33,890 nucleotides of DNA, from positions 1 through 33,890 of the forward strand of contig JAFRQK010000001.1 of NCBI GenBank assembly GCA_017428635.1, in the 5' to 3' direction. Position numbers and translations under genes: made by a program. Position 1 is the stretch's first letter. Each line of letters opens with the position of its first letter. Below are positions 2,319 to 21,842 of this stretch, in pieces. Source of the stretch: Clostridia bacterium. GTDB lineage: Bacteria > Bacillota > Clostridia > Oscillospirales > CAG-272. The notes below the pieces were generated by a model that searched no databases, was not told the origin of the DNA, and worked only from the letters and a program-made list of their open reading frames with translations.

Positions 2319-5054
2319 ATGAAAAAACTACTCTCGGTTGTTCTTGTTCTCGTTATGACCGCCGCGGCGATCGCCTCAACGCTCCCCGCCGGAGCGCTGA
2401 AGGTCTCTTTTTCCGACGTCGCCGAAGACAGGTGGAGCCATGATTCCGTCGTTTACGTCGTCAAAGAGGGATATATGCAGGGCGTCGGGGGAGACAGATT
2501 CGATCCCTCGGGTCACCTGACCCGCGCGATGGTCGCGACCGTCCTGTGGCGGCGCGAGGGATCTCCCGCGCCCTCCGCTCCGAGCGGATTCGAGGACGTC
2601 CCCGATGGCAAGTGGTACACCGACGCCGTGGCGTGGGCGAAAGAGACGGGTATCGTCAACGGGCTCACCCCGACGACGTTCGGACCAAACTCATATATCA
2701 CCAGAGAACAGCTCGGAACGATGCTCTTCCGTTTTTCGTCTTCCGCGCCGGTATCCGTACCGGAACGCGCCGACCTTTCGTCTTTTGAAGACGGTGAAAA
2801 AGTCAGCGGATGGGCCGACGAGGCGATGAAGTGGGCGGTCGAGGCCGGCCTTATCAACGGAACGGGCGGGAACCGTCTCGCTCCCGAAGGAAAGGCGACG
2901 CGCGAACAGTTCGCGGCTATCATCGAGAGATACGACAACACCTTCAAGCTGAAATACAATACTCCCGTCCTCCGTTCTCACTATACCGAGAAAGATTATC
3001 CGCTCGTGACTGACGCCGATTTCTACGTCAGCACGACCGGATCGGACGAGAACGACGGCTCCTTCGAGCATCCGTTCGCCACGTGGAACAAAGCGGCGGA
3101 AGCGGTCCGCGAACTCAAGAAAACCGAATCGGACGATATCACCGTCGCTTTCATGGCGGGAGAATACGGACCTCTTTCGCTCGAACTCACCGCGGAGGAC
3201 TCGGGGAGCGAGACGCAGAGGATAATCTACTGTAAATACGGCGACGGAGACGTCGTCTTCGACAACGGTATGACGGTAAAGGAGGACGAATTCGTTCCGA
3301 TCTCTGAAGAAGAAACAGCGACCTTTTCCGAAAAAGCCGCCGAAAAGATCAAAAAAGCCGACGTGACCGGAAAGCTCGACGACTTCCGGATCACCGACCT
3401 CGTCCTCTCCGAGGGCGGGGAGATGACGGTTGCCCGTTATCCGAACAAGTTCGACGACGGTATGGACAAACTGATGCAGGGCGGTCACACGGTGGACGAG
3501 GATCACATCCGAGTCTATAATCAGATCCTGAAAAATCATATCCTGAGATACGGTTCGACGGACGGCGTGTATCTTTACGGGTACATAACGCTCGGATGGT
3601 ACAAGGACTATATCGAGACCGACGGCAGTTATATCGACCCCGAGACGGGCGATCCGGTCTTCCGCGTCGTTAATCTGGACAAAACGCGCGGCGGAAGTCT
3701 TCGGTTCGGAGACGGATTCGAGACGGACTTTTATCAGATGGCGGTCATCAACGCGCCGGAGGAACTCGACTATGCGGGCGAGTTCATCCTGTCGCGCGAC
3801 AAGAATACTCTTTACGTTTACGATCCCGAGGGCGATTACGTTTTCCTGAAGGAAGGCGATATGATCACGATGGATCACGCCGACTGTATATCCTTCGTCG
3901 GTCTGACGCTCAAAAACACGCTTTCGATGATAATCACCGCGGAGCATTCGCACGGTATCACGATGGACGGATGCCGGATCAGCGGGAGCGGCGCTCACGA
4001 AGCCGTCTCGTTCAGACATTGCGACGAGGGAAGGCGATACGACGTCACCGTCAAAAACTGTGAGTTCTCGTTCACGGCGGCGACGGCGCTCGAAGTCAAC
4101 GTAGGATACGATCTCGATCAGGTTCGCGACACGAACCTTCTGTTCACGAGTTCCGAGGGGGTCCTCATCGACAACAACCTGTTCACCCGCACGAGCCTGA
4201 CGATGGGCAACTGCGGCGCGGTCGCGGTCCACGTTTTCGGACCGACCGTTTCGCACAACGAATTCATCCGCTGCTACTGGGAGGGCATCGACTTTCGCGG
4301 GTCGGTAAACATGACCGCGGAGTACAACGTCTTCAACGGCGTCTGCTGCAACGGCGACGACACGGGAATGATCAACAACTGGTTCAGCATCGACCGGTGC
4401 GGCAACGTGGTGAGGCATAATCTGTTCATCAATTCTCTCGGCGGCTCGATAAACGGATGTTTCGCGCTTTATCTTGACGATACGACCGGTACGTCGGTAT
4501 ATTCGAATATCTTTTATGATATCGCGATAACGGCGAGCAACAACGGCGTCTGCAAATTCAACACGTTCTGCGACAACGTGATCGTCAAACCCTACTGCCC
4601 GGAGGGGACGGGGTGCGATTACAGGACGGGCGGCACGGAAGGCGTTGCGGCGATGATGGAGGAACACGGCGATCCGTCGTGCCTGCTCACGTACGGCGAC
4701 CGCGGAAGGTGGATAAACGTATTCAACCTTTTCGACGAGCATCCCGAATACAAGGAGAAGGCGGGTGAGCGCTGGGACGGTTATTTCGACATCACGACCG
4801 ACGTCGAAAAGTGGAACACTCCCGAGTACTGCCTGAACAATTCGCTCGTCATCACAGGCAACCTCGAGATAAACGAGACGGCGGCACCGCGCGATTATAA
4901 CGAGCTGATAAGAAGATACTCGGTCATCGGAAACAACGTATATTACACCGCTGAGGAGAATCCGCTGTTCGTCAATCCCTCGCGCGGCGACTACCGCTTC
5001 CGCTACGGAGTCGACTTCCCCGAAGTTTTCTTTGAGAGTATTGGCAGATATTGA
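2319..5054 (+). CDS. SLH-anchored right-handed beta-helix protein (paralog B)
   Basis: This is a 911-aa secreted protein. Residues 1-26 form a signal peptide (MKKLL followed by a hydrophobic core and an Ala-rich end). Three SLH domains lie at about 31-74, 91-137 and 150-198, with TRAM, TREQ and TREQ at the positions of the classical TRAE motif. From about residue 230 (DADFYVSTTGSDENDG) the rest is a right-handed parallel beta-helix of the GH141/pectate-lyase-like type, including a TVARYPNKF strand. Acidic motifs are NGDDTG and YLDD (Y near residue 718); these are candidate active-site residues by analogy with related beta-helix glycosidases, which is inference. The protein should be held on the wall polymer by the SLH domains. 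It is probably co-transcribed with its neighbours: 37 bp after paralog A and 21 bp before paralog C. Bases 2704-2786 are identical to 5455-5537 in paralog C. Confidence 0.9.
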   Translation: MKKLLSVVLVLVMTAAAIASTLPAGALKVSFSDVAEDRWSHDSVVYVVKEGYMQGVGGDRFDPSGHLTRAMVATVLWRREGSPAPSAPSGFEDVPDGKWYTDAVAWAKETGIVNGLTPTTFGPNSYITREQLGTMLFRFSSSAPVSVPERADLSSFEDGEKVSGWADEAMKWAVEAGLINGTGGNRLAPEGKATREQFAAIIERYDNTFKLKYNTPVLRSHYTEKDYPLVTDADFYVSTTGSDENDGSFEHPFATWNKAAEAVRELKKTESDDITVAFMAGEYGPLSLELTAEDSGSETQRIIYCKYGDGDVVFDNGMTVKEDEFVPISEEETATFSEKAAEKIKKADVTGKLDDFRITDLVLSEGGEMTVARYPNKFDDGMDKLMQGGHTVDEDHIRVYNQILKNHILRYGSTDGVYLYGYITLGWYKDYIETDGSYIDPETGDPVFRVVNLDKTRGGSLRFGDGFETDFYQMAVINAPEELDYAGEFILSRDKNTLYVYDPEGDYVFLKEGDMITMDHADCISFVGLTLKNTLSMIITAEHSHGITMDGCRISGSGAHEAVSFRHCDEGRRYDVTVKNCEFSFTAATALEVNVGYDLDQVRDTNLLFTSSEGVLIDNNLFTRTSLTMGNCGAVAVHVFGPTVSHNEFIRCYWEGIDFRGSVNMTAEYNVFNGVCCNGDDTGMINNWFSIDRCGNVVRHNLFINSLGGSINGCFALYLDDTTGTSVYSNIFYDIAITASNNGVCKFNTFCDNVIVKPYCPEGTGCDYRTGGTEGVAAMMEEHGDPSCLLTYGDRGRWINVFNLFDEHPEYKEKAGERWDGYFDITTDVEKWNTPEYCLNNSLVITGNLEINETAAPRDYNELIRRYSVIGNNVYYTAEENPLFVNPSRGDYRFRYGVDFPEVFFESIGRY
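2704..2786 (+). repeat. 83-bp block identical in paralogs B and C
   Basis: Identical to 5455-5537, spanning the end of SLH2 and the linker to SLH3. Flanking bases differ between the two genes. Confidence 0.9.
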
Positions 5055-5075
5055 TACAGTTGAGGTGAACGTATT

Positions 5076-7787
5076 ATGAAAAAGTTATTGTCCGCACTGA
5101 TTGCTCTTGTAATGATCGCCGCGGCGGTCGCCGCGGTCCCCGTTTCGGCGAAACAGCTTTTCTCCGACGTTGCGGAAAACCGCTGGAGCGCATCCTCGAT
5201 CAGGTACGCCGTCAACATGGGTTACATGAACGGCGTAGGGGACGGAAAATTCGATCCCAAGGGTCCCCTGACCCGCGCGATGGTCGCCACGGTTTTGTGG
5301 CGGCGCGAGGGATCTCCCGCTCCCGCCGCTCCGAGCGGATTCAAGGACGTACCGGAAGGTAAGTGGTACACCGACGCCGTGGCGTGGGCGAAGGAAACGG
5401 GGATCGTCAACGGGCTCACCCTGACGACGTTCGGCCCGAACTCGTATATCACCCGAGAACAGCTCGGAACGATGCTCTTCCGTTTTTCGTCTTCCGCGCC
5501 GGTATCCGTACCGGAACGCGCCGACCTTTCGTCTTTTTCGGACGATGAAAAAGTCAGCGGATGGGCTGACGAGGCGATGAAGTGGGCGGTCGAAGCGGGT
5601 CTTATCAACGGGATGAGCGGGAACCGTCTTTCGCCTGACGGGAACGCGACGCGCGAGCAGTTCGCGGCTATCATCGAGAGGTACGACAACGCCTTCAAAC
5701 TCAAATACAACGAACCGGTCGTCCGTTCTCACTATACGGAAAAGGATTACGGACTTGCGGATGACGCCGACTTTTTCGTCAGTCCGACGGGTTCCGACGA
5801 AAACGACGGAACGTTTGACCGTCCCTTCGCCTCGTGGAACAAAGCCGCCGAGGCGGTGCGCGAGCTGAAGAAGACGAAGGCCGGCGATATCACCGTCGCG
5901 TTCATGGCGGGAACTTACGACTCTCTGAACGTCGTGCTGACGGAGGAAGACTCCGGATCGCCCGAACAAAGGATCACGTACCGCGCTTACGGCGACGGCG
6001 CCCCGGTATTCGAGGGCGGGACGGTCTTTTCAGCGGACGATTTTGCCGATCTCGACGCGGATGAGGCTGCGCGCTTCACCGCAAAAGCCGCCCCGATGAT
6101 CAAAAAGATCGATCTCGCGTCGAGAATATCAAATACTTCGTCTTTCAGGATCTTCGGAGAAGACGGGATCCTGTATCCCGCGAGATACCCCAACAAATAT
6201 GACGACGGCACGGATCAGCTTATGACGGCTGCGAAGACAACGTCGGATTTCACTATGCAGATCACGATGAAAAACATGAAGACCCGTATTGAAAAATACA
6301 ATGATATTTCCGGTCTTCAGATATACGGCTTCCTGACTTACGGCTGGCACAAGGAAACGCTGTCGGTCGGCGATTATGACCCCGAAACGGGTTCCTTCAT
6401 CGTTCCGGACGCGTCGTCCTCGTATTACGCGCAGCTTTCGGGGGCGCCGGGGCTCAGGTATGTGGTGGAGGAAGACGGCACAGTCTGGGGAAAAGAAGAC
6501 GTCACGTTCGCGTTCGTGAACATGCCGGAGGACCTTGATTACGACGGCGAGTATCTGTTCGACAAAGAGACGGGGACGCTGTACGTTTATAATCCGAAAG
6601 GCGAGTACATCGTCCCTCAGCGGACTACGGGCGTCAAACTGAACGGCGCGAATAATATAACGATCTCGGGCTTTTCGTTCATCGGATCGGCGGACGCGCC
6701 GATAAGAGCGGCGTCTTCATGCAGTTTCTACCTTGACAACTGCAAGTTCCGTGTGACCGGAAGCAACGAGTTCGTCGTCGTCGAGCGGGCGGTCAAGGGC
6801 GTCGATTTCGACTTCCGTCTGACGAACTGCGATTTTGAGTCGGCCCCGTTCGTCGCGGTCCGCGTCCATCCGCAGCAGGAAGGCGCGACAAGATACGACT
6901 ACCCGGTCAGCGGGATCTACGACAACAACCGGTTCTCAAAGATCGGTATCGGTCAGGACGGCGGGGTCGCGCTGTTCATCCGAGATCACGAGACCGCCGT
7001 CATATCCCACAACGAATTCGAGGACTGCGCGAGATACGCGTTCACGTACGGAGGATGCAACAACCTCACGATCGAATACAACGTTTTCAGAAGATGTATG
7101 TACAATTCGGACGACGGCGGCGTTATCTACTGCGGCAACGACAGAACGGAGTACGGCAACGTGGTCCGGTACAATATCTTCTATCCCACCTCCTGGTACG
7201 GGATATACGTTGACGACGGAGGAGTAGGCGTCGAGGCGTACGGCAATATCTTTTACGGCGTGGGCTGCGCCATAGTGTCGCACGAGGGCAGGGACAACAA
7301 CCTGCACGACAACGTTCTGATCGACACGGGCGTTTCCGTCACGCACGAGATCTACGATAATATGCTTGACGCTATGAGGGCGGGGACGCTCGATCTGACG
7401 GACAGAAACACGGCTTGGGGCGAGTATTACGGGAAATGGGTCGATTACTTCTCCATGCTCGAAGCGAACCCGTATTACAAAGGGATCGTGCTGACGGAAA
7501 GGCCCGAAGTGTTCGGTCTTTCGGTCGATCCCGCGGACATTCTGAAGAGCAATTTCGTACTTGCTCCGTACAACGTTTTGAAGAACAACCTGTCCGTATC
7601 GTTACATCCGGAAATTGAAAAAGTTTCCGTTGACGACAGCATCGGCGATCTCGTCGACGTTGAGGGCAACCGTACGGTCGGGACCGACGTGAATCCCGGA
7701 TTTATCAACCCGACGCTCGGTGACTACCGGCTGAAAGACGGCGCGGATTTCATTGATATTCCTTATTCTGAAATAGGCAGATATTGA
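5076..7787 (+). CDS. SLH-anchored right-handed beta-helix protein (paralog C)
   Basis: This 903-aa protein has the same plan as paralog B: signal peptide at about 1-25, three SLH domains to about residue 200, then a beta-helix starting at DADFFVSPTGSDENDG. GAGGTGA at 5062-5068 sits 7 bp before the ATG. The middle is the most divergent of the set: it has its own segment around residues 450-470 and reads NSDDGG and YVDD (Y near residue 711) at the acidic positions, with one Leu-to-Val change from YLDD. The C-terminus is GDYRLKDG...SEIGRY. Substrate specificity probably differs from B and D, given the divergent rungs behind a nearly constant SLH part. The stop codon lies 20 bp before the start of paralog D. 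Alternative reading: a non-catalytic adhesin, since beta-helices can bind without cutting. Confidence 0.9.
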   Translation: MKKLLSALIALVMIAAAVAAVPVSAKQLFSDVAENRWSASSIRYAVNMGYMNGVGDGKFDPKGPLTRAMVATVLWRREGSPAPAAPSGFKDVPEGKWYTDAVAWAKETGIVNGLTLTTFGPNSYITREQLGTMLFRFSSSAPVSVPERADLSSFSDDEKVSGWADEAMKWAVEAGLINGMSGNRLSPDGNATREQFAAIIERYDNAFKLKYNEPVVRSHYTEKDYGLADDADFFVSPTGSDENDGTFDRPFASWNKAAEAVRELKKTKAGDITVAFMAGTYDSLNVVLTEEDSGSPEQRITYRAYGDGAPVFEGGTVFSADDFADLDADEAARFTAKAAPMIKKIDLASRISNTSSFRIFGEDGILYPARYPNKYDDGTDQLMTAAKTTSDFTMQITMKNMKTRIEKYNDISGLQIYGFLTYGWHKETLSVGDYDPETGSFIVPDASSSYYAQLSGAPGLRYVVEEDGTVWGKEDVTFAFVNMPEDLDYDGEYLFDKETGTLYVYNPKGEYIVPQRTTGVKLNGANNITISGFSFIGSADAPIRAASSCSFYLDNCKFRVTGSNEFVVVERAVKGVDFDFRLTNCDFESAPFVAVRVHPQQEGATRYDYPVSGIYDNNRFSKIGIGQDGGVALFIRDHETAVISHNEFEDCARYAFTYGGCNNLTIEYNVFRRCMYNSDDGGVIYCGNDRTEYGNVVRYNIFYPTSWYGIYVDDGGVGVEAYGNIFYGVGCAIVSHEGRDNNLHDNVLIDTGVSVTHEIYDNMLDAMRAGTLDLTDRNTAWGEYYGKWVDYFSMLEANPYYKGIVLTERPEVFGLSVDPADILKSNFVLAPYNVLKNNLSVSLHPEIEKVSVDDSIGDLVDVEGNRTVGTDVNPGFINPTLGDYRLKDGADFIDIPYSEIGRY
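5455..5537 (+). repeat. Second copy of the 83-bp B/C block
   Basis: Identical to 2704-2786; lies in paralog C. Confidence 0.9.
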
Positions 7788-7792
7788 TTTTG

Positions 7793-7797
7793 AAAGG
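7793..7797 (+). promoter_or_regulatory. Ribosome-binding site deciding the start of paralog D
   Basis: AAAGG sits about 10 bp before the ATG at 7808. The frame can be extended to a TTG at 7784 that overlaps the upstream stop codon, but this has no Shine-Dalgarno sequence of its own and would place polar residues before the signal peptide. Confidence 0.7.
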
Positions 7798-7807
7798 GCA
7801 ACGCGTT

Positions 7808-10537
7808 ATGAAAAAGGCATTATCCGCTTTGATCGCAATCGTTATGCTCGCGGCGGCGCTTGCCGCGTCGATACCCGCGTCGGCGAAGGGTCTCTTTTCC
7901 GACGTTGACGACGGCAGATGGAGCGCGTCGTCTATCACGTACGCCGTTAATAACGGCTACATGAACGGCGTGGGGGACGATAAGTTCGATCCGTCGGGAC
8001 CCCTGACCCGCGCGATGGTCGCGACCGTCCTGTGGCGTCGCGAGGGATCTCCCGCGCCCGCCGCTCCGAGCGGATTCGAGGACGTGCCCGATGGCAAGTG
8101 GTACACGGACGCCGTTGCGTGGGCGAAGGAAACGGGTATCGTCAACGGGCTCACCGACAAGACGTTCGGTCCGAACTCGTATATCACCAGAGAACAGCTC
8201 GGAACGATGCTCTTCCGCTTCTCCGCGACCGCTCCGGTATCCGTGCCGGAACGCGCCGATCTTTCGTCTTTTGACGATGATGAAAAAGTCTCGGGCTGGG
8301 CCGACGAGGCGATGAAGTGGGCGGTCGAGGCCGGCCTTATCAACGGCACGGGCGGCAACAAGCTTGCGCCCGACGGAAAGGCGACGCGCGAGCAGTTCGC
8401 GGCGATCATCGAGAGGTACGACAACACCTTCAAACTCAAATACAATACTCCGGTCATCCGTTCTCACTATACCGAGAAAGAATACCCGCTCGTAGAAGAC
8501 GCGGATATATACGTCGCAACTGACGGAGACGACGGAAACCCCGGAACTTTCGACAAACCGCTCGCAACTTTCGCGGGCGCCGTCGCGAAAGTCCGCGAGA
8601 TAAAGGCGTCGAAGACGGAGGGCGATATCGTCGTCGCGTTCAAGGCCGGGAACTACGGTCCTCTCTGTGTCGAACTGACGGCGGAGGACTCCGGTACGGC
8701 GGAGCAGCGGATCGTTTACTGCAAGTACGGCGACGGCGACGTCGTCTTCGACAACGGTCTGACCGTCGGCGCGGGCGAGTTCGTTCCGATCTCCGAGGAC
8801 GAAAGATCGCTCTTTTCCGAAAAGGCGGCCGATAAGATCAAAAAGGCGGACGTCACGGGCCGTCTCGACGGGTACGTCATAACCGATCTCGTTCTCTCGG
8901 ACGACGGGGAGATGACCGTGGCGCGTTTTCCGAACAGATTTGAGGACGGGACCGATCATCTTATACGCGGAGGCCACACGGTCGACGAGAGCCATATCTC
9001 GATCTACAATTCGGTCTTCAAAAACAGGATCAAAAATTACGCGTCGACCGAAGGGCTTTACCTTTACGGATTCATTACGCTCGGGTGGTATAAGGATATC
9101 ATCGAGACGGACGAATGCACGGTCGATCCCGAATCGGGCGACCCGGTATTCCACGTGATCGGTCTGGAGAAAACGAGAGGCGGGAACCTCCGGTTCGGAG
9201 AAGGGTTCGAAAAGCTTTATTATCAGATGGCGCTCGTCAATATCTTCGAGGAACTTGACGCGAAAGACGAGTTCATCTTCTCGCGCGACAAGAACACGCT
9301 GTACGTTTACGATCCGGACAGCGATATGGTCTTCGTAAACGGCGGCGATATGATCTCGATGGATCACGCCGACTATATCTCGTTTATCGGGCTGACGCTC
9401 AAAAACTCCAAAGGGAGAATGATAAACGCCACGGTTTCGCACGACGTCACGTTTGACAGATGCGCGGTGTCGGGGTCCGCTTCCAAATCGGCGCTCTTCT
9501 TCGGCAACTGTGAGCTCGGACGGGACTTCAACATCAGGATCCTCAACAGCGAATTCTCCATGACCGCGGCGTACGCCGTCGACGTTTGCTATTCCAACGT
9601 TCCCGACTCGGGCAGAAACGGCGGCAAAAAGTTCGGCGAACTGATCGACACGGCGAACGGCGTCGTAATCGACAACAATCTTTTCACGAAGTCCTCGCTC
9701 GTGATCGGCAACACCGGAGCCGTCGGGGTAGACGTCACGGCGCCCGTCGTTACGCACAACGTGTTCTACAAGTGCTGCTGGTGCGGGCTGGACTACTCCG
9801 GGACGATCAATATGCTCGCGGCGTACAACGTCTTCGATCAGGTGTGCTTCAACGGCGACGATACCGGAGCGCTGAACACGTGGTACTCCACCGACTACTG
9901 CGGCAACGTGATAAGAAACAATCTGTTCGTCAACGTCCCCGTTTACGGTCTGTACCTTGACGACGTTGTCGGAAACAGAGTGGAGTCGAATATCTTTTAC
10001 GAAGTAGGGACCACTTCCGTGAACAACGGCATCTGCAGATACAACACGTTCTGCGATAACGCACTGATCTATCCGGGCAGGGACGGCGGCTCGGGCTGCG
10101 GTTTCAAAGTGTACGGATCGGAAGCGGTCGAGGAGGCGATGAAGGATAACGACGATCCGTCCGTGCTCACTTCGGTCGGAGACTGGGGACGGTGGAACAA
10201 CACGCTCAAGTACTATTACGACAACCCCGAGGTCCTGGAGCGCGCCAGGGAGATGTGGCCCGATTATTTCGAGATCACGACGGACGTCACCAGATGGCAG
10301 GAAAAGAATTACTGCTCGTACAACTCGCTCGTCATAACGGGCAACCGCGAGATAAACGAAGCCGGAGAGGCTTACGAATATCCCGAGATACTGGCAAAGT
10401 ATTCGACGATAGAGAACAACGTCGGTATTCCGACCGACGAGAATCCGCTTTTCGTCAACCCGACGCTGGGCGATTACCGCCTGCGCGAAGACGCCGGTAT
10501 TCCCGATCTGGAATTTGAAAAAATAGGTCGATACTGA
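7808..10537 (+). CDS. SLH-anchored right-handed beta-helix protein (paralog D)
   Basis: This 909-aa protein has a signal peptide (MKKALSALI...ASA), three SLH domains to about residue 200 and a beta-helix from about residue 230 (DADIYVATDGDDGNPG). It is closest to paralog B over the catalytic-type region: both read KIKKADVTG, a TVAR strand, GGHTVDE, and NGDDTG followed by YLDD. The C-terminus is GDYRLREDAG...EKIGRY. It is the last gene of the A-D run; a weak hairpin follows, and a new promoter starts at 10593. Bases 8333-8415 are identical to 80-162 of paralog A although the flanks differ, a sign of gene conversion. Expected location is the cell surface; the glycan target is unknown. Confidence 0.9.
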   Translation: MKKALSALIAIVMLAAALAASIPASAKGLFSDVDDGRWSASSITYAVNNGYMNGVGDDKFDPSGPLTRAMVATVLWRREGSPAPAAPSGFEDVPDGKWYTDAVAWAKETGIVNGLTDKTFGPNSYITREQLGTMLFRFSATAPVSVPERADLSSFDDDEKVSGWADEAMKWAVEAGLINGTGGNKLAPDGKATREQFAAIIERYDNTFKLKYNTPVIRSHYTEKEYPLVEDADIYVATDGDDGNPGTFDKPLATFAGAVAKVREIKASKTEGDIVVAFKAGNYGPLCVELTAEDSGTAEQRIVYCKYGDGDVVFDNGLTVGAGEFVPISEDERSLFSEKAADKIKKADVTGRLDGYVITDLVLSDDGEMTVARFPNRFEDGTDHLIRGGHTVDESHISIYNSVFKNRIKNYASTEGLYLYGFITLGWYKDIIETDECTVDPESGDPVFHVIGLEKTRGGNLRFGEGFEKLYYQMALVNIFEELDAKDEFIFSRDKNTLYVYDPDSDMVFVNGGDMISMDHADYISFIGLTLKNSKGRMINATVSHDVTFDRCAVSGSASKSALFFGNCELGRDFNIRILNSEFSMTAAYAVDVCYSNVPDSGRNGGKKFGELIDTANGVVIDNNLFTKSSLVIGNTGAVGVDVTAPVVTHNVFYKCCWCGLDYSGTINMLAAYNVFDQVCFNGDDTGALNTWYSTDYCGNVIRNNLFVNVPVYGLYLDDVVGNRVESNIFYEVGTTSVNNGICRYNTFCDNALIYPGRDGGSGCGFKVYGSEAVEEAMKDNDDPSVLTSVGDWGRWNNTLKYYYDNPEVLERAREMWPDYFEITTDVTRWQEKNYCSYNSLVITGNREINEAGEAYEYPEILAKYSTIENNVGIPTDENPLFVNPTLGDYRLREDAGIPDLEFEKIGRY
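8333..8415 (+). repeat. Second copy of the 83-bp A/D block
   Basis: Identical to 80-162; lies in paralog D. Confidence 0.9.
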
Positions 10538-10544
10538 TAACTTC

Positions 10545-10569
10545 CGCGTCCGGAACGCGTCGAATTTTG
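10545..10569 (+). terminator. Weak candidate terminator after paralog D
   Basis: A 5-bp stem (CGCGT/ACGCG, loop CCGGA) lies at 10545-10559 and is followed by a short AT-rich stretch with only four T in a row. It is much weaker than the other terminators in the window, so read-through into the lipoprotein gene is possible. Confidence 0.3.
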
Positions 10570-10592
10570 CGTATTAAAAACCGCTTCACGTA

Positions 10593-10621
10593 TTGAAAAA
10601 CCCGTTTGAGTGTGATATAAT
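10593..10621 (+). promoter_or_regulatory. Sigma-A-type promoter of the lipoprotein gene
   Basis: TTGAAA at 10593-10598, a 17-bp spacer and a perfect TATAAT at 10616-10621. The start codon is 42 bp downstream. Confidence 0.85.
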
Positions 10622-10663
10622 CTCAAGCGGTTCAAAACTGAAAAAATCAAAGGAGAAAAGATC

Positions 10664-11203
10664 ATGAAAAAACTCAGAATCCTCGCGATCGTAATGGCTG
10701 CAGTTCTTACGCTTGCAGTTCTCGTTTCTTGCGGCGGCAAAACGGAGACCCCCTCGGGTTCGGATGCTCCCGCAGGACCGGACGCTCCCGCTGACGAGGT
10801 CAAGGGCGCTATGGATGAACACGGTTACTACAAGGTATTCGTTCCGGAAGGGTACACCCTGAAGCATGAAGACGTTTTCGGCGACGAAAGCCCGAAATCC
10901 TTCAACATCAACAACGACGAAAGCTCCTTCGACTATTTCATGTTCAACATGTATGACGAAGACAACGCCACGTCGAGCGTTGATATGACCAAAGAGATGA
11001 ACGACGGCGCCGCGGACGTCACCCTCGATCTCGACGGTGTGAAGTGGACCGGTGTTGCATACGAATCTCTCGGCATCGCGTGCTTCTCGCTTTACGCCGA
11101 TTTTGACGGCAATTTCGTTCTTGTCAGCGGCGCGGGCAACGCGTACGACAGCGCGATCGTCAAGACCGTTCTCGGATCTCTCGAGGTCAACGTAACGGAA
11201 TAA
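10664..11203 (+). CDS. Small secreted lipoprotein of unknown function
   Basis: This 179-aa protein begins with a lipoprotein signal (MKKLRILAIVMAAVLTLAV) ending in the lipobox LVSC, so Cys23 should be lipidated and the protein anchored to the outer face of the membrane. A Pro/Ala/Ser/Asp-rich linker (about 26-45) leads to one compact acidic domain of about 130 residues with aromatic strands (YYKVFVPEGY, FDYFMFNMYD, WTGVAYESLG). No catalytic motif is evident and I do not recognise the family. It has a strong AAAGGAG site 8 bp before the ATG, a near-consensus promoter and a perfect terminator, so it is a well-expressed single-gene unit. Its position between surface-protein genes suggests an envelope role, which is inference only. 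Confidence 0.85.
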   Translation: MKKLRILAIVMAAVLTLAVLVSCGGKTETPSGSDAPAGPDAPADEVKGAMDEHGYYKVFVPEGYTLKHEDVFGDESPKSFNINNDESSFDYFMFNMYDEDNATSSVDMTKEMNDGAADVTLDLDGVKWTGVAYESLGIACFSLYADFDGNFVLVSGAGNAYDSAIVKTVLGSLEVNVTE

Positions 11204-11220
11204 TTTTCCGACGGTAAAAA

Positions 11221-11248
11221 ACGGAGCCGGCTTTCCGGCTCCGTTTTT
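11221..11248 (+). terminator. Intrinsic terminator of the lipoprotein gene
   Basis: A perfect 10-bp stem at 11221-11230 and 11235-11244 with a CTTT loop, followed by a run of five T (11244-11248) and more T-rich sequence. Confidence 0.92.
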
Positions 11249-11306
11249 GTTTGCTTTTGCGGCGGAAAAGATGGCGCGAAAAGGAAACGCGGCCTTCTTT
11301 TTCCCC

Positions 11307-11336
11307 TTGACTTTATCTTTGTTTATGATGTAGAAT
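11307..11336 (+). promoter_or_regulatory. Sigma-A-type promoter of the SLH-only gene
   Basis: TTGACT at 11307-11312, an 18-bp spacer and TAGAAT at 11331-11336. The start codon follows 39 bp later. Confidence 0.8.
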
Positions 11337-11362
11337 AGTCACAGAGGAAACGATTATTATAA

Positions 11363-11370
11363 AAAGGTGA
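11363..11370 (+). promoter_or_regulatory. Ribosome-binding site deciding the SLH-only start
   Basis: AAAGGTGA lies 5 bp before the ATG at 11376. The in-frame GTG at 11367 is inside this site and so cannot be the start. Confidence 0.8.
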
Positions 11371-11375
11371 CAAAA

Positions 11376-12050
11376 ATGAAAAAGATCATCAGGACAGTAT
11401 CGCTCGTTACTGCCGCCGTCCTTATGCTGTCGGTCTTCGTGATCGGAGCGTCGGGATCTCCCGTTTCGTTCACAGACGTACAGACCGGCCGCTGGAGTTA
11501 TTCCGATATCGAATACGCGGTCGAAAAGGGTTTCATCAAGGGCGTGGGAGGCGGACGCTTTGCTCCCGAGGAGGCTTGTACGCGCGCTATGGTCGTGACC
11601 GTCCTTTACCGCGCCGAGGGGGAACCGGAAGTCGTCTTCAGTCCCGTTTTTTCCGACGTTCCCGCCGGCAAGTGGTACTCGAACGCGGTGATCTGGGCGC
11701 AGAGCAAAGGGATCGTCAAGGGAACGACGGATACCACGTTCAGTCCGGACGCCAAAGTAACGAGAGAACAGCTCGCGACGATCTTCTTCCGGTACGCTTC
11801 CTTTAAACAGTACAAGCTGGAGCTTGGCTCAGAGCTGTCGGGTTTTACCGACAGCGCCAAGATCTCGAAATACGCGTCGGAGGCGATAAAGTGGGCGGTC
11901 GAGATCGGACTCATCAAGGGGTTGACCGTCAATACGATCGGGCCCCGCGGATCTGCAACGCGCGAACAGTTTGCGGCTATTATGGTGAGATTCGACAAGT
12001 ATCCGTTTTCGGAAGGCAACGTCGAGACCTGGATAATTCCGATCGAATGA
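11376..12050 (+). CDS. SLH-domain-only surface protein
   Basis: This 224-aa protein has a signal peptide (about 1-27, MKKIIRTVSLV...) followed by three SLH domains filling nearly the whole chain (about 30-75, 90-135, 150-197), with the sequence marks FTDVQTGRWSYSDIEYAVEKG, FSDVPAGKWYSNAVIWAQ and YASEAIKWAVEIGLI. Only about 25 residues follow the last SLH domain, so there is no effector domain. The SLH part is related to that of the beta-helix paralogs but clearly divergent, so it is not simply a recent truncated copy. Possible roles are wall-polymer occupancy, an S-layer-like filler, or the remnant of a larger SLH protein; a complete promoter, RBS and terminator favour a functional gene. It faces the kinase/PqqD/peptidase operon and shares its terminator. 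Confidence 0.9.
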   Translation: MKKIIRTVSLVTAAVLMLSVFVIGASGSPVSFTDVQTGRWSYSDIEYAVEKGFIKGVGGGRFAPEEACTRAMVVTVLYRAEGEPEVVFSPVFSDVPAGKWYSNAVIWAQSKGIVKGTTDTTFSPDAKVTREQLATIFFRYASFKQYKLELGSELSGFTDSAKISKYASEAIKWAVEIGLIKGLTVNTIGPRGSATREQFAAIMVRFDKYPFSEGNVETWIIPIE

Positions 12051-12052
12051 AT

Positions 12053-12091
12053 AAAAAAGGGCGGTACCGCAATAAGCGGTACCGCTTTTTT
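12053..12091. terminator. Bidirectional terminator between convergent transcripts
   Basis: Arms at 12061-12070 and 12076-12085 are both GCGGTACCGC, separated by AATAA, with six A on the left and six T on the right. It can stop the SLH-only gene (+) and the peptidase operon (-). Each arm is itself a palindrome, so alternative local pairings are possible. Confidence 0.9.
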
Positions 12092-12096
12092 GTTTT

Positions 12097-12552
12097 TCAG
12101 TCCCGGGCCCCGCCTTTTTTGCGGATCCCGAGTTTTCGCGCGATCCGACCGGCAAAGCGGCGCAGACGGGCGAAAAAAGCGCGGACGGGGTAGATCCCGC
12201 ACCACACGCGGACGTAGGTCCTGTAACCGCGATCCGTAACGCGGTGCTTTTTTCCTTTGCGGACAAAATCGGTCAGCACGCCGATAACGGCGCCGTCGGG
12301 AACGTTCTCGAGCGAATACGTGTTGTCGCCGCGGATGAGATAATGGCCTTCCCTCACTTTGATCACGCGGTGCAGTACGTGATCCGCTCCGCGCCGGTAG
12401 AGCGCGACGTCGTGCTTTTTCAAGCGGGAGGAGGGGACCCGGATCGTCACCAGATCTCTGTTCTGGCGCAGCATCGGCTCCATGCTCACCCCGCGCGTTC
12501 GGTAGACGAGTACGCCGTCCCGTGCGAGGATATCCTCAAAAGAAACGTTCAT
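12097..12552 (-). CDS. S24/S26-family (signal-peptidase-like) protease
   Basis: This 151-aa protein carries the serine-protease signature GVSMEP with candidate nucleophile Ser23, a DVALYRR strand, LHRV with His61 at the position of the general base in SipW/ER-type signal peptidases (no Lys in that place), and RGDN at 74-77. The tail is strongly basic. There is no clear N-terminal membrane helix, unlike ordinary type I signal peptidases, so this is probably a dedicated processing enzyme rather than the housekeeping one. The start at 12552 overlaps the stop of the PqqD-like gene by 4 bp (ATGA), showing translational coupling; a longer upstream frame to 12642 only runs through that gene. It is the third gene of the kinase, PqqD, peptidase operon. 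Its substrate is unknown and no leader-peptide gene is visible nearby. Confidence 0.8.
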   Translation of the reverse strand: MNVSFEDILARDGVLVYRTRGVSMEPMLRQNRDLVTIRVPSSRLKKHDVALYRRGADHVLHRVIKVREGHYLIRGDNTYSLENVPDGAVIGVLTDFVRKGKKHRVTDRGYRTYVRVWCGIYPVRAFFARLRRFAGRIARKLGIRKKGGARD

Positions 12553-12809
12553 TCCGTCAGCGCGCCTATCGATCTGAGATCTGCGAGGACCTTCGCCACG
12601 TCGGCGGAGATCCGGTCGCGCGGAGCGTCGTATTTTTCGCACATCGCGTCGACTATCTTCTCCTCGGTCGTATCTTCCTTAAGGCAGTCGATTATGAAAG
12701 CGGCCGTTTTGTTGCTGCGGACTATGCCGCGGAACGCTTCCGCTCCGACCGGTACGAGAAACCGTACGTCGTCGACGTCCTGTGAGATAAAATCGGGTTT
12801 CAGTTTCAT
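12549..12809 (-). CDS. PqqD-like peptide-binding protein (RRE fold)
   Basis: This 86-aa protein matches the PqqD/RRE pattern: an N-terminal strand pair (LKPDFISQDVDDVRFLVPVG), then NKTAAFIIDCLKE, then an acidic helix ending in a DLRSIGALTE-type helix. PqqD proteins bind leader peptides of ribosomally made peptides and present them to modifying enzymes; that role is established for the family and inferred here. It starts 15 bp after the HprK-like gene with a GGGAG site and overlaps the peptidase gene by 4 bp. No radical-SAM enzyme, cyclase or peptide transporter lies in the window, so its usual partners are missing unless the HprK-like kinase is the modifying enzyme. Confidence 0.8.
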   Translation of the reverse strand: MKLKPDFISQDVDDVRFLVPVGAEAFRGIVRSNKTAAFIIDCLKEDTTEEKIVDAMCEKYDAPRDRISADVAKVLADLRSIGALTE

Positions 12810-12824
12810 ATTGTTACTCCCTGA

Positions 12825-13592
12825 TCATTGATTTTTGATGTCGGTGATGTCCTCGTCCGGTCCGAATATCCCGTCCCGGGCGACGCGCGCGGCTTCGGGA
12901 TCCGTGTTGCATCCGAGGACGTAAAAGTCCGTCATATCGAGCAGCCTTTTTTCCATACCGATGATCCGCATTGCCGTCGGCGGATCGTTTGACATAAAGG
13001 CGTGGCCCGTCAGGAGCTGGAAGGCGTCGGCGCGTTCCATCGGGCCGATCCGGTTGACGGGTGCCCGCTCGAGTTTTACGATCGCCTTGAGCGGCGCGGA
13101 GATATTGCTGCCCAGACGGTGTTTCCCGCGCCACGGAGACCCGCACACGGTAACGCGGTCTTCTTCGATACGCAGAAGCGGTTTATCGTCGTTTATCATC
13201 ACGACCCGGTCTCCGAACGTTTCCCTCCACAGACGGGTGTGAGTGCTTTTACCGGTCCCGCTTTTGGCGGTAAAGACGATCGCCTCGCCGTCCGAACGGA
13301 CGGCGGAGCCGTGCATAAGAAGCACGTTTTCGGCGACAAGCTTTTCGGCTAAAAGGCTGTGAATGGCAAGATTTTCGACTTTTACTTCCGTTTTCGGAAG
13401 AAACAGGCCGAGGTCCGTGCTGCGCGCCCGCTTGAAATCGGATATGATCCTTTCAAAGTCGGCGTCCGTCGGTTGAACACAAAAACGGGGGTCTTCTTCA
13501 CTTAAAAAATCTCGAAAAAAAGTCCGGTTTTGCTCGAACCGGCACCGTATAAGCGCCGGAACTCCCGCCAGCTTGACTCGGAATTCGTACAT
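12825..13592 (-). CDS. HprK-like serine kinase / P-loop protein
   Basis: This 255-aa protein has the layout of HprK-like kinases found in RiPP clusters: MHGSAV (residues 93-98), the Walker A loop AKSGTGKST (109-117, Lys115), NDDKP (134-138) as Walker B/catalytic aspartates, and SPWRGKH (152-158). The first ~85 residues are a separate divergent domain. Relatives phosphorylate serines on lasso or other modified peptides, or are uncharacterised partners of PqqD-like proteins. It lacks the full N-terminal domain of true HPr kinase/phosphorylase, so carbon-catabolite control is unlikely. It is the first gene of its operon, with GAGGTGA 5 bp before the ATG and a promoter at 13613-13641. The target is probably a short peptide encoded elsewhere, which is inference. 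Confidence 0.78.
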   Translation of the reverse strand: MYEFRVKLAGVPALIRCRFEQNRTFFRDFLSEEDPRFCVQPTDADFERIISDFKRARSTDLGLFLPKTEVKVENLAIHSLLAEKLVAENVLLMHGSAVRSDGEAIVFTAKSGTGKSTHTRLWRETFGDRVVMINDDKPLLRIEEDRVTVCGSPWRGKHRLGSNISAPLKAIVKLERAPVNRIGPMERADAFQLLTGHAFMSNDPPTAMRIIGMEKRLLDMTDFYVLGCNTDPEAARVARDGIFGPDEDITDIKNQ

Positions 13593-13612
13593 TAAATCAC
13601 CTCAACAAAAAC

Positions 13613-13641
13613 ATTTTAACCCATAAACGCGATAAATGCAA
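13613..13641 (-). promoter_or_regulatory. Promoter of the kinase/PqqD/peptidase operon
   Basis: On the minus strand, TTGCAT (13641-13636), a 17-bp spacer and TAAAAT (13618-13613). The -35 hexamer is weak, but spacing and position (21 bp before the gene) fit. Confidence 0.6.
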
Positions 13642-13686
13642 GTGAGAAAACGGTTATTTGATAAAAATGGGGCCGTCCCGCTTTTA

Positions 13687-13715
13687 TTGCATTTTATCAC
13701 GCCGTTTGGTATAAT
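13687..13715 (+). promoter_or_regulatory. Promoter of paralog E
   Basis: TTGCAT at 13687-13692, a 17-bp spacer and a perfect TATAAT at 13710-13715 with an extended -10 (TGG just before). It is divergent from the minus-strand promoter about 45 bp away and uses the same -35 hexamer. Confidence 0.75.
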
Positions 13716-13748
13716 TGAATCACAATAAACCGAAGGGGACGTTTTAAT

Positions 13749-16454
13749 ATGAAGAGATCTCTTTGCTTATTGATAGCGATCATAATGACTGCGGCCGTTC
13801 TGACGGCCGTTCCGGCGAACGCGAAAAAACCCGTTTTTTCCGACGTTGCCGAAAACCGATGGAGTTACGGATCCGTTACGTACGCCGTGGAAAACGGATA
13901 TATGAACGGCGTCGGAGACGGGAAATTCGATCCCTCGGGATCCCTTACCAGAGGAATGGTCGCCACCGTTCTGTGGCGTCGCGAGGGTTCTCCCGCGCCC
14001 GCCGCTCCGAGCGGATTCGAGGACGTACCGGCGGGCAAATGGTACACGGATGCCATTGCGTGGGCGAAGGAAACCGGAATCGTCAACGGCCTCACCCCGA
14101 CGACGTTCGGGCCGAATTCTTTCATAACGAGAGAGCAGCTCGCCACCATGCTTTTCCGTTTTGCCTCGACCGCGCCGGTGTCGGTACCCGAACGCGCGGA
14201 TCTTACGCCGTTTCCCGACGGCGGAAAAGTGTCCGGCTGGGCCGACGAGGCGATGAAGTGGGCTGTCGAAGCGGGTCTGATCAACGGGACGAACGACGGC
14301 AGACTCGCGCCGGGCGGCAAAGCGACGCGGGAACAGTTTGCGGCGATAATCGAGAGATACGACAACGCGTTCAAACTCACGTACAGAGCACCGGTCCTGC
14401 GTTCTCATTACACCGAGCCGGAGTATCCGCTCGTGACGGACGCGGACTTCTACGTCAGCACGACCGGATCGGACGGGAACGACGGGTCCTTCGAGCATCC
14501 GTTCAGAACGTTTGAGCACGCGCACGAAGTGGTAAAGGAGATACCGAAGACCGCCGAGACGGGCGGTATCACCGTCGCGTTCATGGCGGGAAACTACGGC
14601 CCTCTGAGCGTCGACATGAACTGGGAATCGGGAAATCCCGAGTGCCCGGTCACTTACTGCGCGTACGGCGACGGGGACGTGATCTTCGACAACGGATACA
14701 ACTTCACGGCGGATTCCTTCGTCCCGATCGACGAGAGTGAAAAGGCGTTGTTTACGAGCAAAGCGCTCAAGGGCGACAAGATTAAAAAGACGGATATGTC
14801 GTCCGTCATAGCGCCGGGAACGTACGATCTTGACTGTTACGTCTATTCCGACAACGCTCTGTGTACCGTCGCGCGTTACCCGGACAAATACGAAGACGGG
14901 ACGGACCAGCTCATGAAGGGAGCGGGGTACACTTCCGACGAAACGCATATCCGTATCACGTACAGCGGCATGAAAAACAGACTCGCGTCCTATCACACTC
15001 TTGACGGCGTGAAGCTTTACGGATACCTTACGACGGGGTGGTCCAAGGACACGCTTTCGATCGGCGGGTACGACCCCGAAACGGGCGACGTGCTGATATC
15101 CGATCCCGAAAACGCGAGAATGGGATCGCTCCGCTACCCTGAGTTCCCGAGCGCCGAATTTCACGAGTCGGCGATCCTGAACGCGTCGGAGGAACTTGAC
15201 GCGCCCGGCGAATACTGGGTCGACCCCGCGACGTCCGTTATGTACGTTTACGATCCCAAGGGTGATTACCATATCTGCGGCGGCGGGACGATGATACGGA
15301 TAAACTACACGAGCGATATCACCCTGCGCGGCCTCTCGTTCCGCAATATGGGAGATTACGCCGTATACGGAAACAGGGCTCACGATATTACGATCGATCT
15401 TTGTGATTTCAAATACTGCGGCGGGATGTTCGCGGTCGAGATAGGCGCCCACGAACCGGGACGCGACCTCAACTTCACGATGACGCGCTGCGACTTCGAT
15501 CTGATGATGGACTGCTGTCTGTGCCTCAGCGGCGGCGACGTATCCGAGAAGATAGGCTACGCGACGCATATGAACGCGCTGATCGACAACAACTCCTTCA
15601 AAAATTACAATCTCTTCCTGAACGAGCAGTTGGGAATTTATATCACCGGCTGCGACGAGGTCATGATCTCTCATAACGAATTCATAAACGGAGGAGACGG
15701 CTCGGTCTACTACGGCGGAAGTCAGAACGTAGTAATGGAGTACAACTACTGCAAAAATCAGATCAGGAACGCCTCGGACGCCGGCGTGTTCTGTACGTGG
15801 AACGATTTTGAGCACCGCGGCAACATCGTCAGATACAACCTGATCGATACCGTATCTTCGCATGGAGTAGGCGGGTTTTCCGCGTACCTCGACGACTACT
15901 CGGCGGGTACGTCGTTTTATTCCAATCTGCTCTTCAACGCCAGCGAATTCGTCGTCCACAACGGCAGGGACAACGTGATGAAGGACAATATCCTCATCAA
16001 CACGGACGGATCCGTCAGCGGATTCAGCGTGACCGTGCAGCAGGCGGTCTATATGCCCGAAACGCTCGGTCAGTTCGACGAAGACGATCTTGCCATCGTC
16101 GAAAGCTGGAACGATCTTTTTGCAAAATACGAGAAAAATCCCGCGCTCAAGGCGTACGCCGAGGAACACTGGAAGGAGATATTCGATCTGACGACGGATC
16201 TTGAGAGGTGGGACGACCCGAACTTCGTCCTCGCAAGAAAAGAAACGATAACGAACAACAGGTTCATCAATTTGAAGGGCGCGATCGCCGTACCGACCGA
16301 CGAATACGTCGTTAAATATTCGACGATCGAGGGCAACGTCGGGTACACACTCGACGAGAATCCGTTCTTCGTCAACCCGTCTCGCGGCGATTACCGCTTC
16401 CGGGAAGGCGTCGGCTTCCCGGATATCCATTTTGAAGAGATCGGAAGATATTGA
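13749..16454 (+). CDS. SLH-anchored right-handed beta-helix protein (paralog E)
   Basis: This 901-aa protein has a signal peptide (MKRSLCLLIAIIMTAAVLTAV...NA), three SLH domains to about residue 200, then a beta-helix from about residue 230 (DADFYVSTTGSDGNDG). It is closest to paralog F: both read KGDKIKKTDMSSVIAPGTYDL, a TVARYP strand, NAxDxGVFCTWNDF and YLDDYSAG. GAAGGGG lies 10 bp before the ATG, and the gene has its own promoter, apart from the A-D operon. The C-terminus is GDYRFREG...EEIGRY. Bases 14211-14512 match 33890-33589 of paralog F in inverted orientation with four mismatches. Location: cell wall surface. Function: glycan binding or cleavage by family, substrate unknown. No strong terminator follows, so some read-through into 16603 is possible. 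Confidence 0.9.
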   Translation: MKRSLCLLIAIIMTAAVLTAVPANAKKPVFSDVAENRWSYGSVTYAVENGYMNGVGDGKFDPSGSLTRGMVATVLWRREGSPAPAAPSGFEDVPAGKWYTDAIAWAKETGIVNGLTPTTFGPNSFITREQLATMLFRFASTAPVSVPERADLTPFPDGGKVSGWADEAMKWAVEAGLINGTNDGRLAPGGKATREQFAAIIERYDNAFKLTYRAPVLRSHYTEPEYPLVTDADFYVSTTGSDGNDGSFEHPFRTFEHAHEVVKEIPKTAETGGITVAFMAGNYGPLSVDMNWESGNPECPVTYCAYGDGDVIFDNGYNFTADSFVPIDESEKALFTSKALKGDKIKKTDMSSVIAPGTYDLDCYVYSDNALCTVARYPDKYEDGTDQLMKGAGYTSDETHIRITYSGMKNRLASYHTLDGVKLYGYLTTGWSKDTLSIGGYDPETGDVLISDPENARMGSLRYPEFPSAEFHESAILNASEELDAPGEYWVDPATSVMYVYDPKGDYHICGGGTMIRINYTSDITLRGLSFRNMGDYAVYGNRAHDITIDLCDFKYCGGMFAVEIGAHEPGRDLNFTMTRCDFDLMMDCCLCLSGGDVSEKIGYATHMNALIDNNSFKNYNLFLNEQLGIYITGCDEVMISHNEFINGGDGSVYYGGSQNVVMEYNYCKNQIRNASDAGVFCTWNDFEHRGNIVRYNLIDTVSSHGVGGFSAYLDDYSAGTSFYSNLLFNASEFVVHNGRDNVMKDNILINTDGSVSGFSVTVQQAVYMPETLGQFDEDDLAIVESWNDLFAKYEKNPALKAYAEEHWKEIFDLTTDLERWDDPNFVLARKETITNNRFINLKGAIAVPTDEYVVKYSTIEGNVGYTLDENPFFVNPSRGDYRFREGVGFPDIHFEEIGRY
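14211..14512 (+). repeat. Left copy of a 302-bp inverted repeat (paralog E / paralog F)
   Basis: Base-by-base comparison with the reverse complement of 33589-33890 gives four mismatches, at 14330, 14389, 14471 and 14498. It covers SLH3, the linker and the start of the beta-helix. Similarity drops sharply after 14512; on the other side the second copy leaves the window, so the full length is unknown. Confidence 0.9.
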
Positions 16455-20599: not shown

Positions 20600-20641
20600 C
20601 GCGCAAAGCGAGAACGGATCAATATTGTGTCGCAAAACCAA

Positions 20642-20676
20642 AACCCCGCAGAGCCGTCCGCGGGGTTCGCTTTTTT
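20642..20676 (+). terminator. Intrinsic terminator after the DUF4838 gene
   Basis: Stem AACCCCGC (20642-20649) with GCGGGGTT (20660-20667), a 10-nt loop, then CGC and a run of six T (20671-20676). Confidence 0.85.
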
Positions 20677-20741
20677 GCGGTCACAGACCCGGATCTCCCC
20701 GAAGGAACGTCACGGCGCGCCCCCCCGACAGGCGATTCTTG

Positions 20742-20770
20742 TTGTTTACTTCCGTTTCGTATGGTATAAT
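20742..20770 (+). promoter_or_regulatory. Promoter of the phosphatase gene
   Basis: TTGTTT at 20742-20747, a 17-bp spacer and TATAAT at 20765-20770 with an extended -10 (TGG). Transcription should begin near 20777, which rules out the longer upstream open frame from 20625. Confidence 0.8.
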
Positions 20771-20788
20771 TAAAAAAAAGCGAAAAAT

Positions 20789-20793
20789 GGGGA
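20789..20793 (+). promoter_or_regulatory. Ribosome-binding site deciding the phosphatase start
   Basis: GGGGA lies 8 bp before the ATG at 20802. The in-frame ATG at 20787 is only about 10 nt from the expected transcript start and has no site of its own. Confidence 0.6.
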
Positions 20794-20801
20794 ACGAGCG
20801 T

Positions 20802-21842
20802 ATGATCCACCTTATCTCTCCCGAGAACGGAGCGGAGTTTTCCGTCCTGACGGACGTGCAGAAACAACTCATAAAACAGAGCCTCGCGGGGACTTTCACC
20901 CGATTCGGCAATTACGGCGAAGAGAACGACGACGACGCGTCGGCGCCCGCAGTGTGCGTTTTCAGATGGCGCGCCGACGAGACGGACTTCCCGACGTCTC
21001 TTGAGATCTCCGAGGCGGAAGATTTTTCCGTTCCTTCTCACGTCGATATTTCGGGGACGTTCCAGTCGGCAACCGACGGCGACCTGTTCGCGACGGGGCG
21101 AAATTTCATGACCGGGAAAAAGTACTTTTGGCGCGTGGCGCAGAACGGCGAGTATTCACAAGTCAGATCCTTTGCCACTCTGCCCGATCCGATCCGCCCT
21201 CTGTCCGTCGACCGCGTTCCGAATTTTCGCGACCTCGGAGGAAGAATAAACGCCGAGGGCCGAAGAATGAAGCAAGGGCTCCTCTATCGCGGAAGATTCC
21301 TCGAATGGGAGGAGGACGACCGGTACGGTCTGACCGAAAACGGAAAGATAACGTTCGCCGAGAAACTCGGGATCAGGACAGAGATCGACCTGCGCGAGGA
21401 AAAAGAGGGAAAGATGACCGTCAGCCCCGCCGGACAGAGCGTCCGTTACGTCCAGGTATCGCACGACAGTTCGTGGGGCGGCACGCTGAACGACCGAGGC
21501 ATGGGTCAGCTCGATCAGATATTCGCCGTGCTGTTCGATCCCGCGTCGTACCCCGTATATTTCCATTGCTTCGCCGGAGCGGACAGAACGGGATTCATCT
21601 CCATGATCATCGACGGGATCGTCGGGATGAGCGACGAGAACATTATTCTCGAATACAATTTCACCGCCCTTTTCGATCACCGGAACTGGAAAGAGTGCGA
21701 GGGCGCGAGCGCGTATTTCGCTTTTCTGCGCGAGACGTTCGGAGATCACTCGCTCTCCGAGCTTATAATGCTCCACCTTACGAACTACGGGATCGACAGG
21801 GATAAGCTGATCCGGCTGAAAGAATTTCTTCTGGAAGACTGA
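20802..21842 (+). CDS. Tyrosine-protein phosphatase with N-terminal Fn3-like domain
   Basis: This 346-aa cytoplasmic protein has no signal peptide. Residues 1 to about 125 look like a fibronectin-III-type sandwich (VFRWRADETDFPTSLEIS, KKYFWRVAQNGEYSQVRSF). The rest is a Y_phosphatase3-type domain with PNFRDLGG, GLLYRGRFL, IDLREEKEG and the P-loop HCFAGADRTG, in which Cys256 is the nucleophile and Arg262 binds phosphate. The reaction would be hydrolysis of phosphotyrosine, or perhaps phosphoinositide or another phosphoester, since this family is broad. The gene has its own promoter and terminator. It could counter protein-tyrosine kinases of surface-polysaccharide assembly, but no such kinase is in the window. 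Confidence 0.9.
   Translation: MIHLISPENGAEFSVLTDVQKQLIKQSLAGTFTRFGNYGEENDDDASAPAVCVFRWRADETDFPTSLEISEAEDFSVPSHVDISGTFQSATDGDLFATGRNFMTGKKYFWRVAQNGEYSQVRSFATLPDPIRPLSVDRVPNFRDLGGRINAEGRRMKQGLLYRGRFLEWEEDDRYGLTENGKITFAEKLGIRTEIDLREEKEGKMTVSPAGQSVRYVQVSHDSSWGGTLNDRGMGQLDQIFAVLFDPASYPVYFHCFAGADRTGFISMIIDGIVGMSDENIILEYNFTALFDHRNWKECEGASAYFAFLRETFGDHSLSELIMLHLTNYGIDRDKLIRLKEFLLED

Follow-up and report, generated by a model that had tools for sequence, protein, structure and literature searches.

The window, the whole 33,890-nucleotide stretch of DNA analyzed here, is the entire contig C33 of a 2.27 Mb assembly in 79 contigs that is 96% complete. Reading its open reading frames confirmed a locus of three genes at 12097..13592, on the minus strand throughout:

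12825..13592, minus strand: HprK-like peptide kinase (LppK-like), 255 aa
12549..12809, minus strand: stand-alone PqqD-type RiPP recognition element (RRE; LppB-like), 86 aa
12097..12552, minus strand: SipW/SEC11-type Ser-His-Asp leader peptidase (LppS-like), 151 aa

A 15-nt gap separates the kinase stop from the PqqD gene, whose own stop shares 4 nt (ATGA) with the peptidase start, the packing given in a preliminary description of this DNA; an alternative, longer peptidase frame is possible from a GTG at 12642. That description had remarked on the absence of a radical-SAM enzyme, transporter or clear precursor beside the trio, and our search of the window found none adjoining it; an exporter and a nucleotidyltransferase are also absent beside the trio. 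Among the frames listed for the window there is no credible YxxP precursor, the best score of our leader profile (below) being 4.4 bits, and antisense frames (cluster c11), considered as a cis precursor, were taken as artefacts of G+C-rich DNA. The genome does have one PF14907 nucleotidyltransferase gene, but at a different site that resembles a polysaccharide locus.

The trio sits inside an array of genes for large, secreted-looking proteins with SLH domains (59-16454 and 31647-33872), of which the one member scanned has a right-handed beta-helix region; in a congener record, L032, the trio lies beside genes related to this array. A gene for a tyrosine-phosphatase-family protein (20625-21842; PF13350, E 6.8e-26) is placed between those for an SLH/DUF4838 protein and a 3139-aa SLH protein. 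Apart from the trio, contig C16 (L079 8533-9915, minus) encodes a radical-SAM protein with an N-terminal PqqD-like domain, presumably resembling a SCIFF-type maturase.

A comparable enzyme set was published in May 2026 with the LPP (linear polyphosphorylated peptide) RiPP family, whose cluster in Paenibacillus alginolyticus is lppA-K-B-S-D-N (Popov et al., 2026; PMC13381572). According to the main text of that paper, the Paenibacillus kinase-RRE-SipW-like set experimentally polyphosphorylates and cleaves a YxxP precursor: LppK polyphosphorylates core Ser3, and LppB binds the YxxP leader and is required for cleavage after Thr(-1) by the SipW-like LppS. LppB holds the leader with residues N33, Y60 and D70, of which the Asn33 and Asp70 equivalents occur widely in the RREs of PQQ and lasso systems too (PMC13381572).

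The active sites of the window proteins bear out the identities that the preliminary description had proposed. It had called the first gene a P-loop serine-kinase relative, and among 37 aligned relatives the invariant residues (window numbering) include the Walker A residues G112, G114, K115 and T117 together with H94, H118, N134, D136 and K137; a loss of active-site residues in homologs, which that description had set against its own reading, was not seen in these 37. D135, read from the alignment, is present in the window and in 30/37 relatives, and the published His-Lys-Asp-Asp motif was mapped onto the window kinase by position alone, with neither PadeK nor LppK in the alignment. The kinase has distant similarity to that of the SynChlorMet cassette (ScmC) and to HprK_rel_A/B, with scores far under the curated cut-offs: its matches to ScmC (TIGR04249; E 6e-4, 19.2 bits vs a cut-off of 125) and HprK_rel_A (TIGR04352; E 9e-4, 18.4 bits vs a cut-off of 200) are weak, and 30 and 18 of the 37 relatives, respectively, matched these models at E up to 0.01. 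We know of no SipW-like peptidase in SynChlorMet or HprK_rel cassettes.

The leader-peptide-binding fold of the second protein is upheld by a match to PF05402 above cut-off (E 2.6e-14); it also matches the lasso B1 model NF033530 below its cut-off (E 6e-10). N33, Y60 and D70 are all present in the window protein and recur in 47, 47 and 50 of 54 aligned relatives, the equation with LppB being by numbering only, as LppB was outside the alignment. For the peptidase, matches to archaeal-type signal peptidase I (TIGR02228, E 4e-5) and PF00717 (E 0.003) both fall under curated cut-offs, and a profile search of the PDB returned signal peptidase IB (E 4e-4) and human SEC11A (E 5e-4). S23, H61 and D76 are invariant in 30 aligned relatives, so the earlier claim of a SipW-like protease with His in place of the usual Lys is correct; these residues fit a putative peptidase of the SipW/SEC11 type. 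By eye, no membrane stretch is apparent at its N-terminus.

The kinase was found in 24 of 59 related genomes, the window's own included, and a single scan of genome_contigs added 47 kinase loci, by title mostly from Clostridia with a few Erysipelotrichaceae, many of them from animal guts. The best match among named records is L032, a Clostridia MAG from sheep omasum, with 67% kinase identity; a single-protein scan of viral contigs turned up no relative. After two loci were dropped, profiles of the three proteins (K/D/S) were applied to 75 kinase loci: PqqD is nearby in 53, PqqD and peptidase in 38, a contiguous K-D-S order in 33, and neither partner in 20. In four loci the order extends to K-D-S-A-N, the trio being followed by genes for an ABC exporter (MsbA-like) and a nucleotidyltransferase (PF14907). 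An NTP transferase occurs in 11/75 loci and a radical-SAM gene in 9/75, and a cis YxxP peptide, exporter and nucleotidyltransferase accompany the trio in some relatives. Related kinases with PqqD and peptidase absent nearby (L045, L047, L060-L066, L069, L072, L074, L075 and L078) come in many cases from Ruminococcus MAGs, some with recurring neighbors of their own. The isolate Butyrivibrio fibrisolvens D1 has a distantly related set on its plasmid pNP243 (L225), where genes for the kinase, a YxxP peptide, PqqD and an S24/S26 peptidase adjoin a lasso cluster; the core of this peptide is rich in Cys, Pro and Tyr.

A search for a conserved short ORF around the kinases of relatives, as the preliminary description had proposed, revealed a family of peptides of ~30-90 aa with the leader KKxYxxPE[IM]EIIxFxxED[VI]ITxS, followed by divergent cores that are short, acidic and Gly-rich. 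A leader profile matched the family at >30 bits, on the kinase strand near the kinase, with the next match at 7.4 bits; it was trained on 18 of those matched peptides, with L053, L055 and L058 outside the training set. An initial leader pattern proved too narrow. A looser leader pattern was noisy, occurring in 29/677 frames just upstream of the kinase vs 282/9849 elsewhere, and was discarded. In a leader logo of 48 peptides, counted from the Tyr, D(+14) is present in 92%, T(+17) in 77% and S(+19) in 90%, and the top residue in columns +20 to +25 reaches at most 29%. The values for Tyr (92%), P(+3) (79%) and E(+6) (85%) are partly by construction, as the anchoring pattern demands Y, F or H at 0, restricts +3 and +6, and excluded 2/50 peptides. 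In a set that includes repeated loci, 53/55 cores have a negative charge and 55/55 have Ser or Thr. An SD-like site precedes 50/57 peptide starts (seven of the 57 being repeated loci) vs 24% in shuffled upstream sequences, and 28 of 42 differences between two homologues in G049 fall at third codon positions, the pattern that translation would produce.

At L113 1630-2415, and near peptides in L082, L096, L148 and L175, lie genes for Ser/Thr-rich proteins, lipoprotein-like or membrane-anchored, that end in an ELPxxPx-like tail. ELP motifs in some peptide cores resemble the tail of the neighboring lipoprotein (permutation p 0.013 over eight hand-picked pairs), a similarity that is suggestive only.

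Profile A1, built without any peptide from the genome of the window, detected two YxxP peptides there, both on other contigs: one on C44 (E 5.4e-9) and one on C50 (E 4.9e-5). The C44 peptide (11-130) begins just 10 nt into its contig; next come genes for a radical-SAM protein of 461 aa and for a lipoprotein-like protein of 261 aa with the C-terminus YELPEIPIG. The absence of a radical-SAM enzyme noted earlier thus holds beside the trio but not beside this peptide. The C50 peptide (L114:8545-8658, minus) lies 18 nt behind the gene for a secreted-looking protein of 1556 aa, which has a hydrophobic stretch at the N-terminus and matches Cleaved_Adhesin in three places. Two congeners are similarly arranged: G001 has two YxxP peptides and G002 four, none on the contig of the trio, and on G001 C94 a radical-SAM gene follows the peptide, as in C44. 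At E 0.01 no peptide was detected in nine other genomes of the genus, of which eight also lack a kinase match and one (G008) has a distant kinase. Of the two substrates suggested in the preliminary description, one encoded elsewhere gains support from the C44 and C50 peptides; a surface protein does not, the indication for it coming from gene neighborhood.

Kinase and peptide co-occur across genomes. Among the 59 relatives the kinase is present in 19 of 20 genomes positive for the peptide with A1; leaving out the six genomes that donated to A1, the peptide is found in 13/18 kinase-positive vs 1/35 kinase-negative genomes. Two further draws comprised 295 genomes from the order and 391 from the class. 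Genomes counted as fresh in them exclude the 59 relatives by handle only, and their independence may be incomplete, because several of the 47 genome_contigs loci feed the profiles and some may recur among the drawn genomes. The order draw gave 65 genomes with both, 21 with the kinase only, six with the peptide only and 203 with neither, such that the kinase is present in 65/71 peptide-positive genomes; the six exceptions include G281, which is 81% complete and has ten peptide matches. In the class draw the corresponding numbers were 47, 64, 1 and 279, with the kinase in 47/48 peptide-positive genomes. Kinase-positive genomes in which no peptide was detected are common (21/86 in the order draw, 64/111 in the class draw). 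When kinases of the class draw, earlier genomes left out, were split by hand near 203 bits, a peptide accompanied 39/57 full-length, trio-type kinases vs 4/49 shorter or weaker ones. Individual genomes of this draw can hold many peptides, with 19 matches in G529 and 14 in G337.

Many peptide genes lie directly behind genes for giant surface-type proteins. At 23/40 earlier loci and at 15/22 newly found loci (30 less seven repeats and one unlocated, with sequence examined to ~500 aa upstream), the peptide is preceded on its own strand by a frame of 300 aa or more that stops no more than 60 nt away. The control, short intergenic frames having an SD-like site, gave 11/150 (Fisher p 6e-10, comparing the new loci). 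A strongly hydrophobic N-terminal stretch is present in 17/23 of the large upstream proteins, and four of the other six extend past the contig or the sequence examined. Several have surface-type domains (Big_2, InlB repeats, LRR_5, TIG, GH88, Cleaved_Adhesin), and three of nine scanned for domains had no match. Twelve aligned giant proteins share a C-terminal domain of ~270 aa, here A5 (for example L114 8680-9489(-), L149, L144 and L146), for which we found no convincing Pfam or NCBIfam match. A5 is present in 11/59 relatives, ten of which have the kinase. It is not always paired with a peptide: a leader peptide follows 13 of 27 located domain proteins (11 passing the SD filter and two outside it, G029 C78 and G056 C9). 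In the window's own genome there are seven A5 matches, one of which, on C50, is followed by a peptide; of the peptide-free remainder four were inspected and two deduced from there being two profile peptide matches.

Judged by sequence, the enzyme set is known in kind, appearing to be the K-B-S core of the LPP family. Both systems cluster an HprK-like kinase, a discrete RRE with N33/Y60/D70 and a SipW-like Ser-His-Asp peptidase; in both, the YxxP leader is hydrophobic at +5 and has a Thr close to its end, with a conserved Ser just past the Thr; and in some relatives an exporter and an NTP transferase lie beside the trio, as in LPP clusters. Unlike the LPP cluster, the window trio has no neighboring precursor, exporter (LppD) or NTP transferase (LppN), and precursors are dispersed and multiple. 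The leaders also differ, the motif here contrasting with YxxPxVLxHQxIxFETxxS as given for LPPs (PMC13381572): the distance from Tyr to Thr is two residues longer and, if the cut follows Thr, the Ser is at +2 rather than +3. The hosts here are Clostridia, with peptide genes often behind giant surface-type proteins, whereas LPPs often accompany capsule loci in Bacilli, their role being stated as unknown (PMC13381572). In the main text of that paper the terms 'surface protein', 'Clostridia', 'secreted' and 'orphan' found no match. Among the matches listed in our literature searches it was the one match for a kinase-PqqD-S24/S26 set, and the LPP name occurs there alone. As far as the literature searched shows, neither a form acting in trans on several precursors nor a pairing of such peptides with giant surface-type proteins has been described.

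Phosphorylated lasso peptides are a further point of comparison. The lasso kinase BsfK is reported to phosphorylate Ser3, with its B1 protein speeding phosphorylation (PMC10368454), and PadeK, ThcoK and PsmK/PsmN are further lasso-peptide kinases (PMC9266682). As these papers describe them, paeninodin-type and Bsf systems resemble ours in a precursor-acting kinase with His-Lys-Asp-Asp, a B1 RRE and a YxxPxL leader, and in some the kinase has a nucleotidyltransferase partner, a likeness to relatives of the trio. In contrast to lasso systems, the peptidase here is SipW-like, and a B2 cysteine protease was not found above cut-off: the best PF13471 match in the window's own genome has E 0.03, with none at E 0.001. 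PF13471 is present in 2/59 relatives, one of them kinase-positive (G043), and kinase-positive G058 has a match below cut-off.

We consider it likely that the trio forms the core enzymes of a RiPP system of the LPP type working in trans, which would bind, phosphorylate and cut peptides made from other loci. The bind-modify-cut logic put forward in the preliminary description agrees with the Paenibacillus precedent (PMC13381572), with the conserved residues and with the co-occurrence of kinase and peptide. The PqqD protein would bind the YxxP part of leaders made from other loci (C44, C50); the kinase would phosphorylate a Ser of the peptide, most likely the one in ED[VI]ITxS, where the leader block ends; and a cut at that point, by analogy after Thr(+17), would be made by the SipW-like peptidase. 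This would place the phosphate, again by analogy, on Ser(+19) as core residue 2. A short, acidic, Gly-rich phosphopeptide would be released. We infer the action of the trio on these peptides, as well as the exact site, export and function. Because so many peptide genes are directly behind giant surface-type proteins, the mature peptide is, on the basis of gene order, probably a companion of these proteins at the cell surface.

The position of the trio inside an array of secreted-looking SLH proteins, and the giant surface-type proteins preceding many peptide genes, could instead be read to mean that the trio targets neighboring S-layer (SLH) or other surface proteins, the kinase being a surface-protein kinase and the peptidase providing a signal-peptidase-like step. 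We find this unlikely: the YxxP-holding residues are retained in the PqqD protein, the kinase accompanies peptides in the draws of 295 and 391 genomes, the surroundings of the trio differ in relatives, and a cytosolic kinase and peptidase would need to act before export. The radical-SAM genes that follow the peptides in C44 and G001 C94 raise a different reading, in which a radical-SAM enzyme is the main modifier of the trans peptides and the trio acts on some unrelated substrate. Only 3/22 trans loci have a radical-SAM match beside the peptide, however (L113, L148 and, weakly, L154), the kinase is present in all but one of the peptide-positive relatives, and the eight same-genus genomes without the kinase also have no peptide at E 0.01; we regard this reading as very improbable.

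The trio might also be a remnant or outlying tailoring module of a lasso pathway with its cyclase and B2 protease elsewhere. The match of the PqqD protein to the lasso B1 model NF033530, counted here as its best although under cut-off, points that way, as do the YxxPx[ILM] leader and the kinase, which resemble those of lasso systems, and the distant kinase-peptide-PqqD-peptidase set beside a lasso cluster in Butyrivibrio fibrisolvens. Against this, PF13471 is not above cut-off in the window's own genome and is found in just two relatives, and a SipW-like peptidase occupies the place of B2. Membership of a standard lasso cluster, which the preliminary description had named as an outcome that would overturn its account, does not apply as far as tested, and we hold a lasso origin to be extremely unlikely.

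Returning to an LPP-type system acting in trans, we tentatively suggest, as one possibility and with less confidence than we place in the enzyme core itself, that in Clostridia one central kinase-RRE-peptidase set matures a repertoire of short phosphopeptides. Many of these would each have a giant secreted protein of their own, to which the phosphopeptide may be a dedicated partner: an anchor, a folding or assembly factor, or a contact-dependent signal. The combination of one trio with several peptides and giant-protein neighbors gives a concrete hypothesis on the role of LPPs, with many natural pairs. A further implication may be that genome mining by cluster overlooks RiPPs of this type, since their precursors are ~40 aa and lie on other contigs than the enzymes. 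If the reading of the peptides as surface partners is true, LPPs would belong to the biology of surface proteins and not to that of secreted antibiotics.
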